Of a stretch of DNA of 64,000 bases, positions 9,278 to 36,421 are shown piece after piece. The position numbers were made by a program, and so were the translations under genes. Below the pieces are notes generated by a model. That model searched no databases, was not told the origin of the DNA, and saw nothing but the letters and a program-made list of their open reading frames with translations. Origin of the DNA: Leifsonia shinshuensis (GTDB taxonomy: Bacteria; Actinomycetota; Actinomycetes; Actinomycetales; Microbacteriaceae); NCBI RefSeq assembly GCF_031456835.1, contig NZ_JAVDVK010000001.1:1240001-1304000 (forward strand), read 5' to 3'. The stretch's first letter is position 1; every line of letters begins with the position of its first letter.

Positions 9278-10389
9278 GTGGCCAGCCACTCCAGGTAGAA
9301 GGAGCCCACACCGGCGGCGACGAGCAGGCCGCCGATGATCCAGAACCGGACGACGACCGTCACCTCGGCCCACCCCTTCAGCTCGAAGTGGTGGTGGATG
9401 GGGCTCATCAGGAAGATGCGGCGGCCGTGCGTCAGCTTGAAGTACGCCCGCTGGACGATCACCGACCCGGCCTCGATGACGAAGATGCCGCCGATGAGCA
9501 CCAGCAGGAGCTCGGTGCGGCTCAGGATGGCGAGGGCGGCGACCGCGCCGCCGAGCGCCAGGGAGCCGGTGTCCCCGAGGAAGATCTGCGCCGGCGAGGT
9601 GTTCCACCACAGGAAGCCGACCACGGCGCCGACGATGGCGGTCGCCACGATGGCGAGGTCGAAGGGGTCGCGCACGTCGTAGCACTTGGCGACGTTCTCG
9701 ACGCTCAGCTTGACGTTCGCGCACGACTGGATCGACTGCCAGAAGCCGATGATGATGTAGGCGCCGATGGCGAGGATCGAGGCGCCCGACGCGAGCCCGT
9801 CGAGGCCGTCCGTGACGTTCACGCCGTTCGAGGTCGCCGCGACCAGGAAGTTGATCCAGATCAGGTAGAGCCCGTAGCCGACGAGCACGCCGATGACGCC
9901 GAACTTGGTGATCGAGCCGAAGTCGATCGCGGGCAGGTCGCGGATGAACGACACCGTCATCGTCGCCGGCGTGTAGCCGTTGCCGTTCGGGAAGCGGATC
10001 GCGAGGAACGCCCACACGGTCGCGACGATGACCTGGCCGGCCACCTTCGCCCAGCCGGTGAGCCCCAAGCTCCGCTCGCGACGGGTCTTGAGGAAGTCGT
10101 CGATGAAGCCGACCACGCCGAGGCCCACCATGAGGAACAGCACCAGCAACGAGGACACACTGGTCCCGTCGCCGGTGAGCAGGAGCGCGGTGAAGTAGCC
10201 GAACAGCGTGCCCAGGATGACGACGATGCCGCCCATCGTGGCGGTGCCGCGCTTCGCGTGGTGGCTCTGCGGGCCGTCGTCGCGGATGAACTGGCCCCAC
10301 TGCAGGCGGCGGAACAGCCGGATGAACAGCGGCGTCAGGAACAGCGTGAACGCCATGGACAGCGCACCGGAGGTCAGCAGGGCTTTCAC
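9274..10389 (-). CDS. mraY: Phospho-MurNAc-pentapeptide transferase MraY
   Basis: 371 aa polytopic membrane enzyme that transfers phospho-MurNAc-pentapeptide to undecaprenyl phosphate (lipid I synthesis). Signature stretches present are [11 protein letters not shown], the aspartate pair in [32 protein letters not shown] and the HHHFELKGW motif near the C-terminus. The GTG at 10389 overlaps the murF stop by 4 bp, and its own stop overlaps murD. All catalytic aspartates and histidines are present. Confidence 0.97.
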
Positions 10390-22795: not shown

Positions 22796-22837
22796 CCGGT
22801 TCCGGCCGGCGTCCGGCCGGTTCCGACATCCAGGGGA

Positions 22838-22878
22838 CGCAAAACGCCGTTATCCGTGGCGGATAACGGCGTGTTGCG
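22838..22878. terminator. Strong hairpin between the convergent kinase and aroG genes
   Basis: ACGCCGTTATCCG pairs perfectly with CGGATAACGGCGT (13 bp, 3-nt loop), and the outer CGCAA/TTGCG extends the stem with one mismatch. On the minus strand the stem core is followed by TTTT, so it can end aroG transcription and probably serves both genes. Confidence 0.75.
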
Positions 22879-22906
22879 ACCCTTCGATGAGGGCTCGGGC
22901 CAGGGA

Positions 22907-26155: not shown

Positions 26156-27979
26156 GTGAATGTGATCGAAACGCCCGTCGTCGTCCCCGCCGACCCGGAG
26201 GCCAACGCCACCGATCTGCTGGTGCAGCGGGTGGCCGAGACCCCGGACCTGCCGCTGTTCGCCCTGCCGGACGGCGACGGCTGGAGGGACGTCACGGCCG
26301 CCGAATTCCACCGCCAGGTGATCGCGCTGGCGAAGGGACTGGTCGCGGCCGGCATCCAGCCCGGCGACAAGATCGGGCTGATGTCGAAGACCCGGTACGA
26401 GTGGACGCTGATCGACTTCGCCACCTGGTTCGCCGGCGCGGTGCTGGTGCCGATCTACGAGACCTCCTCCCCCACGCAGATCCAGTGGAACATGTCCGAC
26501 TCCGGAGCCATCGCGGTGTTCCTGGAGAACGCGGAGATGCACGCGCGCTTCGACGAGGTCCACCCGGAGCTCCCGCTGGTCGGGACCGTGTGGCAGCTGC
26601 ACCTCGGCGACCTCGACAAGCTGGCCGCCGCCGGGGTCGACGTTCCGGACGAGGAGATCGAGCGCCGCCGCCGTATCGCCACGGGCGCCGACATCGGGAC
26701 GCTCATCTACACCTCGGGGTCGACGGGACGCCCGAAGGGATGCGTGCTCACCCACTCCAACTTCGTCGAGCTCTCGCGCAACTCGGCCGAGGCGCTGAAG
26801 GAGGTCGTGCAGGACGGAGCATCCACTCTGCTCTTCATCACCACCGCGCACGTGTTCGCGCGCTTCATCGCCGTGCTGTGCGTCACCGGCGGCGTCAAGG
26901 TCGGCCACCAGGCCGACACCAAGCAGCTGCTGCCCGCGCTCGCGAGCTTCAAGCCGACGTTCCTCCTGGCCGTGCCGCGCGTGTTCGAGAAGGTCTACAA
27001 CTCGGCCGAGCAGAAGGCCGAGGCCGGCGGTCGCGGCAAGATCTTCCGGGCGGCCGCCGAGGTGGCCGTCGAGCACTCGAAGGCCGTCGAGGCCGGCTCG
27101 GTGCCGTTCGGGCTCAAGCTGAAGTTCGCGCTCTACGACCGGCTGGTGTTCTCGAAGCTCCGCGCGGCGCTCGGAGGCCGGGTCAAGTTCGCCGTCTCCG
27201 GCTCCGCCCCACTGGGCTCGCACCTCGGGCACTTCTACCACAGCCTCGGCATCAAGATCCTGGAGGGCTACGGCCTCACCGAGACGACGGCGCCCGCGAC
27301 CGTGAACCGTCCCGACACCTTCAAGATCGGCACCGTCGGCCCCGCGCTGCCGGGCGTCGACCTCCGCCTCGCCGACGACGGCGAGATCCAGGTGCGCGGC
27401 ATCAACGTGTTCAAGGAGTACTGGAAGAACCCGGAGGCGACCGCGGCCGCGTTCGACGACGGCTGGTTCCGCACCGGCGACCTCGGGTCGTTCGACGCGG
27501 ACGGCTTCCTCACGATCACCGGCCGCAAGAAGGAGATCATCGTCACGGCGGGCGGTAAGAACGTCTCCCCCGCCGCGCTTGAGGACCCCATCCGCGCCAA
27601 CCCGCTGGTCTCGCAGGTCATCGTCGTCGGCGACCAGAAGCCGTTCATCTCGGCGCTGGTCACCCTCGACACCGAGATGCTGCCGACCTGGCTGGCGAAC
27701 AACGGCGAGGACAAGGACATGACGCTCGCCGAGGCGTCCGTGAACCCGGCCGTGCACGCGGAGATCCAGCGGGCCATCGACCACGCGAACGCCGGCGTCT
27801 CGCGCGCCGAGAGCGTCCGCAAGTTCGTGGTGCTCGCGACCGAGCTGAGCGAGGCGAGCGGGCACCTGACGCCCAAGCTCAGCATCAAGCGCAACGTCAT
27901 CCTGGCCGACTTCGCCGACGTCATCGACGGCATCTACAGCGACAACCCCCGCACGGAGGGCTTCTCGCTGGCGCACTGA
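26156..27979 (+). CDS. Long-chain fatty acid--CoA ligase (FadD15-like)
   Basis: 607 aa adenylate-forming enzyme. The AMP-binding P-loop YTSGSTGRPKG, the GYGLTETTA motif, and DGWFRTGDLG with the C-terminal lysine region ITGRKKEIIVTAGGKNVSP are all intact. It activates fatty acids to acyl-CoA by way of an acyl-adenylate. A GAGGGAG Shine-Dalgarno lies 7 nt before the GTG at 26156. Mycobacterial fadD15 lies in the same neighbourhood as plsC and aroG, which supports orthology. Confidence 0.93.
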   Translation: MNVIETPVVVPADPEANATDLLVQRVAETPDLPLFALPDGDGWRDVTAAEFHRQVIALAKGLVAAGIQPGDKIGLMSKTRYEWTLIDFATWFAGAVLVPIYETSSPTQIQWNMSDSGAIAVFLENAEMHARFDEVHPELPLVGTVWQLHLGDLDKLAAAGVDVPDEEIERRRRIATGADIGTLIYTSGSTGRPKGCVLTHSNFVELSRNSAEALKEVVQDGASTLLFITTAHVFARFIAVLCVTGGVKVGHQADTKQLLPALASFKPTFLLAVPRVFEKVYNSAEQKAEAGGRGKIFRAAAEVAVEHSKAVEAGSVPFGLKLKFALYDRLVFSKLRAALGGRVKFAVSGSAPLGSHLGHFYHSLGIKILEGYGLTETTAPATVNRPDTFKIGTVGPALPGVDLRLADDGEIQVRGINVFKEYWKNPEATAAAFDDGWFRTGDLGSFDADGFLTITGRKKEIIVTAGGKNVSPAALEDPIRANPLVSQVIVVGDQKPFISALVTLDTEMLPTWLANNGEDKDMTLAEASVNPAVHAEIQRAIDHANAGVSRAESVRKFVVLATELSEASGHLTPKLSIKRNVILADFADVIDGIYSDNPRTEGFSLAH

Positions 27980-27992
27980 GGCACTGCCTGCT

Positions 27993-29000
27993 TCACGATT
28001 TGTGCCAAATCGTGGTTTTGCGCGCCGCATTACCGAGATTTGGCACAAATCGTCGAACGCGTGCGATGAGGGCGTCGCGATCGCGGAAGAGGTCGTCGGC
28101 CGTCACGCGGACGACGCGCCAGCCCGCGGCCTCCAGCAGCTCGTGCCGTCTGATGTCGAGGAACCACTGGCGTCGGTCCACCCGGTGGCCGTCGCCCTCG
28201 TACTCAAACGCGATGCGCTCCGACGGCAGTGCGAGGTCGGGATGGAGGGTCACGGTCCCGCCGTCGAGCACGAGCGGCTGATTGACGGCGAACTCCCCCG
28301 CGCCGAGCTCGTCGAGGAGCAGGCGAAGCAGCGTCTCGGGCCTCGAATCGGCCCCGGAGCGGATGCGCGGAAGAGCCCACGCACGCGCCTTTCCGCCCTT
28401 CGTCCGGTGCACGTCGGCCGAGAGCGCCGACAGCTCCTCCATCGTGACCCGAGCCGGCCGCGAGCGGGCGCCGACAAGGTAGTCGCCCGCGGCGACGAGA
28501 TCCTCGGGCGCGATCATCCCCGAGAGCTGACACCAGACGTGCGCCGGCGCACTGATCGGCAGGCCATCGACGGTGGCCCCGCGGAGCGTCCGCAGGCTGT
28601 GCCCGGTGACTCGCTTGCCCTGCGACGCAGTACGGGGAGAGCGCACCGACACATGCAGGGGATGGCCGTGCGCATCCATCGGAAGAGGAATGCCCGTCAG
28701 AGCGGCCGCGGTGGTGTGACTGAAGTACGCGCCCGCCTGCATCACGGGGAGGTACGCCCGGCAGAGCTCCTGGAGCTCTCCGGGAGCGCTCGACAGGTTG
28801 ACGCCGTGGAACGGATGGTGGATGTCGCGTGCGCGCAGGCGGAGCTCGTCGACGCCATAGCGCCGCGCGTGCGCGACAGTGAACGGGACGCCGACCAGCG
28901 GCCGCGGCAGTGGTTGTGGAGTGCGCTTCCCTCCATGGTGCTGAAGGTGTCGTGCGCTGCGCGGCGTTCCGGCAAACCTGTGGACAAGCGCCCTCTCCAC
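27993..29000 (-). CDS. DUF559/Vsr-like endonuclease-fold protein flanked by palindromes
   Basis: About 335 aa from the GTG at 29000; the start is uncertain because no Shine-Dalgarno is seen and the head shows alternative frames. The N-terminal part resembles AbiEi-like proteins with a winged-helix head (VPFTVAHARRYGVDELRLRA). The C-terminal part (LHPDLALPSERIAFEYEGDG, then AAGWRVVRVTADDLF) is the DUF559/Vsr PD-(D/E)XK nuclease pattern. The last six codons and the stop lie inside the left palindromic repeat, and a second copy lies just upstream of the start. Nuclease activity and mobility are inference; it is probably an accessory, horizontally acquired cassette. Confidence 0.7.
   Translation of the reverse strand: MERALVHRFAGTPRSARHLQHHGGKRTPQPLPRPLVGVPFTVAHARRYGVDELRLRARDIHHPFHGVNLSSAPGELQELCRAYLPVMQAGAYFSHTTAAALTGIPLPMDAHGHPLHVSVRSPRTASQGKRVTGHSLRTLRGATVDGLPISAPAHVWCQLSGMIAPEDLVAAGDYLVGARSRPARVTMEELSALSADVHRTKGGKARAWALPRIRSGADSRPETLLRLLLDELGAGEFAVNQPLVLDGGTVTLHPDLALPSERIAFEYEGDGHRVDRRQWFLDIRRHELLEAAGWRVVRVTADDLFRDRDALIARVRRFVPNLGNAARKTTIWHKS
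27994..28055. repeat. Left copy of a nested palindromic element
   Basis: Arm CACGATTTGTGCCAAATC (from 27994) is matched in inverted orientation by GATTTGGCACAAATCG ending near 28052. The inner part is imperfect (GTGGTTTTGCG against CGCATTACCGA). Each arm is itself a palindrome, CACGATTTG-TGC-CAAATCGTG. It overlaps the 3' end of the DUF559 gene and follows the acyl-CoA ligase stop by 14 bp. Confidence 0.85.
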
Positions 29001-29013
29001 ACCCCCATCAGTC

Positions 29014-29076
29014 GCACGATTTGTGCCAAATCGTGGTTCTGAGCGCGCTATAACCACGATTTGGCACAAATCGTGC
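29014..29076. repeat. Right copy of the nested palindromic element
   Basis: Two perfect 25-bp arms (29014-29038 and 29052-29076) in inverted orientation, beginning GCACGATTTGTGCC, enclose a 13-nt loop. The same arm sequence occurs in the left copy at 27994-28055. It lies between the 5' end of the DUF559 gene and the stop of the epimerase gene. Confidence 0.92.
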
Positions 29077-29100: not shown

Positions 29101-29946
29101 TCAGACCTCGTCGCGCCAGGAGTGCTCGGGGGCGTAGCCGAGGACGCGGCGGGCCTTGTCGATCGAGAGGAGGGTGTCGTTGACGCCGAGGTCGCGCTTC
29201 AGCGGGACGCCGGGGAAGACCTCGGCGACGAGCTCGTCGTTGGGGCGGCTCATCACGGTGTCGGCCGCCGCGATGATGAAGCGGTCGAAGCCGGTCGTGT
29301 CCCACTCCAGGGCGCGGCGGATGGCCTGGGCGCCGTCGCGCGCGTCGATGTAGCCCCACAGGTTCCACTTGCGTGCGCGCGGGTCCTCGTCGAAGGAGGG
29401 GAAGGCGGCGTAGTCCTCCGGGTCCATCACGTTGGAGAAGCGCAGCGCGACGATCTTCAGCGCCGGGTCCCAGCGGACCAGCTCGATCGCCATCTGCTCC
29501 TCGAGGTGCTTCACCAGCGAGTAGGTGCTCTCCGGTCGGGCCGGGTAGTCCTCATCCACCGGGATGTACGGCGGCGGCACGTCGAAGGGCAGGCCCAGGA
29601 CGGTCTCCGACGACGCGTAGACGACGTTGCGGATTCCGGCGCGACGCGCCGCCTGGAAGACGTTGTAGGTGACGCGGATGTTGTTGTGGAACGTCGCGAC
29701 GTCGCTCAGGATGCCCGGCGCCGGGATGGCCGCCAGGTGCACGATCGCGTCGAAGCCGTCGTGCTTGTCGTTCACGCCGAGGATGGCGTCGATCGTCTGG
29801 CCGAAGTCGGTCAGGTCGACCCGGACGAAGCCGGGACCACGCTCCCCCGCCGCATCGAGGGAGATGACCTCGTCCCCTGTCTTCCGCAGCTCGCGCACGA
29901 CAGTGCGTCCGAGCTTGCCCGATCCTCCGGTGACCGCGATTCGCAT
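29101..29946 (-). CDS. NAD(P)-dependent epimerase/dehydratase (extended SDR)
   Basis: 281 aa. The Rossmann motif VTGGSGKLGRT is at 5-15, VYASSETVLG supplies the catalytic serine, and STYSLVKHLEE holds the YxxxK pair. It resembles atypical/extended short-chain dehydrogenases acting on nucleotide sugars or uronates; the substrate is not identifiable. A TAGACT box lies 7 nt before the ATG at 29946. It ends 25 bp before the right palindrome. Confidence 0.85.
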   Translation of the reverse strand: MRIAVTGGSGKLGRTVVRELRKTGDEVISLDAAGERGPGFVRVDLTDFGQTIDAILGVNDKHDGFDAIVHLAAIPAPGILSDVATFHNNIRVTYNVFQAARRAGIRNVVYASSETVLGLPFDVPPPYIPVDEDYPARPESTYSLVKHLEEQMAIELVRWDPALKIVALRFSNVMDPEDYAAFPSFDEDPRARKWNLWGYIDARDGAQAIRRALEWDTTGFDRFIIAAADTVMSRPNDELVAEVFPGVPLKRDLGVNDTLLSIDKARRVLGYAPEHSWRDEV

Positions 29947-36347: not shown

Positions 36348-36421
36348 CCCACCGTCGAGTACACGAAAAGTGCACGGTTCGACGGCGCGCCGCGTGCACT
36401 TTTCGTGTACTCGACGGTGGG
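36348..36421. repeat. Perfect 29-bp inverted repeat between convergent genes
   Basis: Arms 36348-36376 and 36393-36421 are exact inverted copies (beginning CCCACCGTCGAGTACACG) with a 16-nt loop. Each arm contains an inner near-palindrome GTACAC-GAAAA-GTGCAC. The layout is the same as that of the elements near 28 kb but the sequence is different. It probably also ends transcription of both flanking genes. Confidence 0.93.

Follow-up and report, generated by a model that had tools for sequence, protein, structure and literature searches.

The gene and its framing palindromes

A 64,000-nucleotide (nt) stretch of contig NZ_JAVDVK010000001.1 of Leifsonia shinshuensis, referred to in its whole length as the window, carries a gene of the DUF559/MTES_1575 family that is bracketed by two copies of a palindromic element. 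The three features lie as follows:

27993..29000, minus strand: DUF559/MTES_1575 gene; start codon uncertain
27994..28054, no strand: downstream palindromic element, with two 17-nt palindromes whose starts are 40 nt apart
29014..29076, no strand: upstream palindromic element, with arms of 25 base pairs (bp)

The upstream copy presented arms at 29014–29038 and 29052–29076 that are 100% complementary over 25 bp around a loop of 13 nt, just as the initial annotation had described, and the arms of the downstream copy (27995–28022 and 28026–28053) were complementary at 86% over 28 nt. The location of the 3' end of the gene inside a palindromic element also held: its stop codon (27993–27995, minus strand) overlaps the edge of the downstream element, and the last codons of the gene are encoded by it. 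Both copies have in common the sequence CACGATTTGTGCCAAATCGTG, itself a hairpin-type palindrome with a 9-bp stem and a 3-nt centre, in agreement with the shared self-palindromic arm reported before. A single element consists of two 17-nt palindromes of the CGATTTG-TGC-CAAATCG type, 40 nt apart, which gives a core of 57 nt. The 17-mer, with up to three mismatches, matched seven times within the window, at four sites (three of them on both strands), against 0.06 matches expected from shuffled sequences.

The encoded protein matched the profiles PF18741 and PF04480 and no others. In a reading of 323 amino acids (aa; 28964–27996), an AbiEi-like N-terminal part, which presumably binds DNA, covers about residues 14–202, and a nuclease domain of Vsr/EDxHD fold about residues 205–309. 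The predicted folds are that of AbiEi and that of the nuclease I-Bth0305I (EDxHD), in line with the AbiEi-like head and the DUF559 C-terminus proposed originally, and the nuclease domain of the DUF559 relatives has conserved residues. A sequence search of the PDB with this protein returned weak matches only, the best being 3hrl (E 0.16). Regarding its start, the ATG of the orthologues (MRTP... or similar, where the orthologue has that end) corresponds to AAG at 28926–28928, and a GTG at 29000 is one candidate; the true start may lie further upstream, or the gene may be weakening.

Two neighbours delimit the locus, the first of them conserved and convergent with the DUF559 gene, so that it marks the fixed locus:

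26156..27979, plus strand: AMP-binding gene
29101..29946, minus strand: gene of the NAD-dependent epimerase/dehydratase family

Framing and dispersal in Leifsonia and other genera

Palindromes beside other DUF559 homologues, which the initial annotation had proposed to seek in related genomes, were abundant. We scored 105 relatives in 28 Leifsonia genomes, comprising 103 genes (from 107 matches) and two further PF18741 genes of the window's own genome (G000, 3.79 Mb), with gene ends taken from the search matches and not from full gene models. Matched palindromes flanked 87 of the 105 at a score of at least 17 and 80 at a score of at least 20, whereas among 552 control open reading frames (ORFs) analysed in identical windows only 7 and 3, respectively, reached these scores. 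Two DUF559 genes (the hits in stretches L271 and L296) are among these 7 control matches and one of them is among the 3; the controls were simple ORFs of at least 150 aa from 44 stretches of genomes G001, G019, and G021 (two of them near relatives), with both DUF559 genes included. The two further PF18741 genes (L234 and L235) appeared as unframed, a label that is unreliable, as their ends were guessed and the frame of L234 contains four stops. Framed genes were present in 26 of the 28 genomes, from one to six per genome (three in G000, up to six in G004), and the DUF559 genes fell into four main fixed loci, occupied in 24, 23, 21, and 19 of the 28 genomes, plus smaller ones.

Each main locus has its private palindrome. 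Likeness was compared for 61 of the 105 genes, those in which each flank yielded a hairpin; 57 of these belong to the four main loci. Between main loci of one genome it was 0.14 (88 comparisons), against 0.13 for shuffled sequences, whereas the two copies of one gene gave 0.57–0.68. For the same side of orthologues, the values were 0.19–0.34 below 75% protein identity, 0.66–0.72 between 75 and 90%, and 0.78–0.98 above. As the copies of one gene are much more alike than those of diverged orthologues, both copies change together as species diverge.

The gene at locus 1, that of the window, was found at the same place in 24 of the 28 genomes, with matched flanks (score of at least 17) in 22 of these 24 and with a species-specific palindrome, examples of which are CGATTTGTGCCAAATCG, AGATTTGCGCCAAATCT, ACATTCGTGCCGAATGT, ACATTCGTCACGAATGT, and CGATTCGTGACGAATCG. 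Most orthologues read through the first downstream arm in frame, giving RFVPN or RFVTN, and the change between P and T thus tracks the centre of the palindrome. A degenerate pattern built to cover the species forms was counted in each genome, giving 14–387 matches in each of the 23 genomes where palindromes stand next to the gene, counting G005 and G017 with their broken copies, and 0–1 in G003, G004, G011, G013, and G027; the locus-1 gene is absent from four of the latter and is divergent and unframed in G004. The reversed control pattern gave no match in 27 of the 28 genomes and one in G018, and the degenerate pattern itself gave 0–3 matches in 292 of 293 genomes from other genera of the family and six in the remaining one.

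In G000, the 17-mer with up to two mismatches matched 90 times, compared with none for the reversed control pattern, corresponding to about 45 elements, in which the arms are conserved and the centres vary. The paired palindromes were inverted in 33 of the 46 pairs scored and direct in 13, and 44 of 46 elements examined lay outside called genes. Convergent genes enclosed 25 of the 43 elements with a called gene on each side, and 26 of 112 background gaps were of this convergent kind; gene calling here was crude, based on codon-position GC, and missed the DUF559 gene itself. None of 45 elements showed identical flanks of at least 4 nt directly outside the 57-nt core, although a duplication further out would have been missed.

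Leifsonia has three more dispersed palindrome families, two of them represented in the window:

36357..36412, no strand: dispersed element of the second family (GAGTACACGAAAAGTGCACGC arms)
22834..22882, no strand: dispersed element of the third family (GGGNCGCAACACGCCG arms)

The GAGTACACGAAAAGTGCACGC family frames a different DUF559 gene, at genome position 3059109–3059936, 1.8 Mb from the window; its arm in G000 (locus #1) matched 88 times in that genome, 5–17 times in seven genomes, and not at all in twenty. The GGGNCGCAACACGCCG family (locus-#3 arm) frames genes in other Leifsonia genomes, with 8–74 matches in 12 of the 19 genomes that carry that gene and 0–5 in the nine without it, G000 excepted. 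Finally, one locus-#2 arm showed 4–27 matches in the six genomes where it frames the gene and 0–1 in eighteen others.

By a de novo hairpin search in 80 public loci, genes with different framing palindromes were recognised in Microterricola, Herbiconiux, Pseudolysinimonas, Subtercola, Microbacterium, Rathayibacter, and Galactobacter, and also in Pseudonocardia (L163), here by reading of the hairpin output only, with the element outside the scored windows. Strictly matched hairpins were present in 27 of 72 loci, Leifsonia included, versus 1 of 683 control ORFs, and flank scores of at least 20 in 44 of 75 loci versus 6 of 716 controls (outside Leifsonia, 33 of 61 versus 4 of 588); nearness to a contig end had removed 8 of the 80 loci from the first test and 5 from the second. 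A Subtercola arm matched 42, 50, 58, and 85 times in four Subtercola genomes, 0 times in a fifth, and 0–7 times in nine others. On a protein tree of 165 rows, made by a quick method, framed and unframed genes were mixed, with 30 changes of label where shuffling the labels gave 36.7 (a count that low came up in 1 of 500 shuffles), so framing has often been gained or lost, or was missed by the score. This tree omitted short rows and those containing two or more stops, together with L234/L235, L086–L096 (Leifsonia duplicates), L098, L115, and L117.

Proposed role of the nuclease and of its palindromes

The explanation that we favour, with moderate confidence, is that the gene, inherited vertically, supplies the enzyme that partners the dispersed elements of about 57 nt, in a REPtron-like pairing with an unrelated nuclease that would act through cutting and copying. 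The two elements that frame the gene would be members of the dispersed family, and a dimer would recognise the double palindrome as duplex DNA, with one protomer per arm. According to a review (PMC3943268), the target on which I-Bth0305I forms a dimer is nearly 60 bp long, which by analogy would make a dimer on the 57-nt double palindrome a natural model. The protein would nick or cut such sites or related half-sites, and repair copying an element from elsewhere would produce new copies in intergenic DNA. The same templated repair would lengthen arrays and keep both framing copies alike, and a spread of this kind, by cutting and repair from another copy, would proceed without target duplications. 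Regarding arrays, the one upstream of gene L092 (positions 9673–9927) contains several extra palindromes, in steps of about 40 nt, compared with its close relative L091. AbiEi proteins bind inverted repeats, and for this reason the upstream element probably serves in addition for autoregulation of the gene. The data themselves establish the framing and its recurrence, the sequences private to each locus, the dispersal, the likeness of the two copies, and the predicted fold, from which binding, cutting, copying, and autoregulation are inferred.

Several observations weigh against this explanation. No clean empty site was found in the comparisons of Leifsonia loci: in a 20-kb alignment of nine syntenic loci the flanks of L. 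poae (L095), whose unframed gene is 52% identical, were too diverged to define a junction, and no clean junction appeared between L241 and its relatives, in indel scans of 19 locus pairs, or in two 200-kb stretches of G019 and G021, genomes 96% identical over a 4-kb stretch at locus 1. In one of these 200-kb stretches, the elements of locus-1 type occupied identical sites, and two elements of other families were present in one genome only, their junctions not being clean. Of the two-part refuting outcome named in the initial annotation, the first part, a palindrome occurring nowhere near other DUF559 homologues, did not materialise, and for the second the empty-site comparisons yielded no clean junction. 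One clade lay entirely under the framing score (7 of 7 genes), and eight locus-1 orthologues (L069–L076) lack the first 45 residues or so, the head of the AbiEi-like part, and keep their palindromes. Among orthologues with at least 75% protein identity, the palindromes (0.66–0.98) resemble one another no less than the two copies belonging to a single gene do, and no compensatory base changes were seen in the 45 elements of G000. Furthermore, the locus-#3 arm matched 30 times in G000, where no gene of that locus was found, and only 0–6 times in 7 of the 19 genomes with the gene, near the 0–4 of the reversed control, although some of these seven carry variant arms. Likewise, the locus-#2 arm showed 5–16 matches in G008, G015, G016, and G020, where it frames no gene found. 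Elements can thus occur without a gene of their specificity, perhaps as relics. Also, in the Subtercola genome G321, two non-DUF559 genes (L299 and L300) lie between element pairs.

As read from their sequences, one of these two genes is nucleoside-hydrolase-like and the other is unrelated to DUF559. The additional Subtercola element pairs had been candidates for further cassettes and were rejected as such, having other genes inside.

It is unlikely that the protein is instead an AbiEi-type repressor, with the framing palindromes as operators and the dispersed copies as a regulon or as nucleoid-binding sites, without any spread by cutting. The AbiEi fold would suit this role, as would the position of the upstream element about 25–150 nt before the match start in most genes where one was found, and conserved arms devoid of compensatory changes fit duplex binding. 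However, most genes have a second element at their 3' end, the elements are enriched between convergent genes, an arrangement in which operators would not be expected, and residues of the nuclease domain are conserved.

Framing on both sides and dispersal could also mean that palindrome, gene, and palindrome form one transposable cassette, of which the dispersed copies would be non-autonomous derivatives. This we consider improbable, as the genes are found mainly at four fixed loci, each in 19–24 of the 28 genomes, no flanking duplication of at least 4 nt was seen directly outside the cores of 45 elements, and no clean empty cassette site was seen; the earlier proposal of a mobile system is therefore unsupported on this timescale as far as a cassette that moves the gene is concerned. 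Still less probable are ordinary repeats of the repetitive extragenic palindromic (REP) or miniature inverted-repeat transposable element (MITE) kind, moved by an unrelated enzyme and using DUF559 genes merely as tolerant places: they would account for the elements in genomes without a matching gene and for the other genes between elements, but not for one private palindrome per main locus within a genome, a framing so far above that of the controls, or counts that are genus-restricted and gene-linked. An action of the elements as RNA hairpins (terminators or mRNA ends), kept for that role, agrees with their placement between convergent genes, yet it is very improbable, given the missing compensatory changes and its failure to explain private sequences per paralogue or the likeness of framing copies.

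Comparison with known systems

The target-site duplication of classical insertion sequences or MITEs was not seen directly outside the core of the Leifsonia elements. Unlike AbiE antitoxins, the Leifsonia protein has a fused nuclease domain, and no AbiEii toxin gene stands directly beside the window gene, whose two immediate neighbours were those examined. In contrast to the EDxHD homing endonucleases such as I-Bth0305I (PMC3943268), the gene lies between two genes and not in an intron or intein, and it is framed by palindromes with many dispersed target-like copies. A Caulobacter study on the DUF559 protein VsrA ties Vsr-like proteins to T:G mismatch repair (PMC12907096), and its main text contains no word beginning with "palindrom". 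Among the papers listed by the literature searches made, none described an association between DUF559 nucleases and palindromes.

The likeness to REP transposases with a different enzyme, put forward in the initial annotation, is well supported as regards elements that are dispersed, mostly extragenic, mostly paired, and framing DUF559 genes, but not as regards a mobile gene cassette. The gene is framed by the genome's own dispersed palindromes, and these are extragenic and mostly paired inverted units, as in the REP-associated transposases (RAYTs) and REPtrons. RAYTs are described as single-copy, distinctive where several occur, and located beside their own REPs (PMC3116915). As in the REP/REPIN-RAYT systems so described (PMC3116915, PMC3733652), each enzyme gene is adjacent to palindromic repeats of its own, a genome can contain several distinct pairs, the palindromes are paired, inverted, and extragenic, and inheritance is largely vertical with co-divergence. 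Unlike RAYTs, no Y1/HUH domain was matched in G000, where the profile Y1_Tnp (PF01797) gave no hit while the same search was positive in 5 of 14 control genomes; a Vsr/EDxHD-fold nuclease with an AbiEi-like part takes its place. Neither is there a constant GTAG tag at the repeat end, GTAG or CTAC being present in just 3 of 46 elements (6 nt on either side included), and the absent compensatory changes speak mildly against single-strand processing of the palindrome. The CGTC-tagged REPs are also dispersed palindromes and are described as apparently having no dedicated transposase (PMC3733652); the Leifsonia tag differs from theirs.

These data point to an enzyme that could partner the dispersed palindromes of a genome with no Y1 transposase domain found, predict pairs of enzyme and site in several genera, and are relevant to the apparent lack of a transposase in some REP families. 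Framed paralogues with unrelated sites, such as the three in G000 and up to six in G004, would be natural orthogonal proteins that bind or cut long DNA sites, and a system in which to watch protein and site change together. As its enzyme belongs to a class with no relation to RAYTs, this enzyme-repeat partnership looks like a kind not described before, and its way of life looks convergent with theirs. Whether Actinobacteria contain self-spreading palindromes driven by AbiEi-Vsr-type nucleases, in several independent pairs in many of their genomes, each with a double-palindrome specificity of about 60 bp and with enzyme and repeat co-changing over short evolutionary times, is to our judgement evenly balanced; if so, the REP/RAYT way of life would have been invented a second time, independently, with the chemistry of homing endonucleases.
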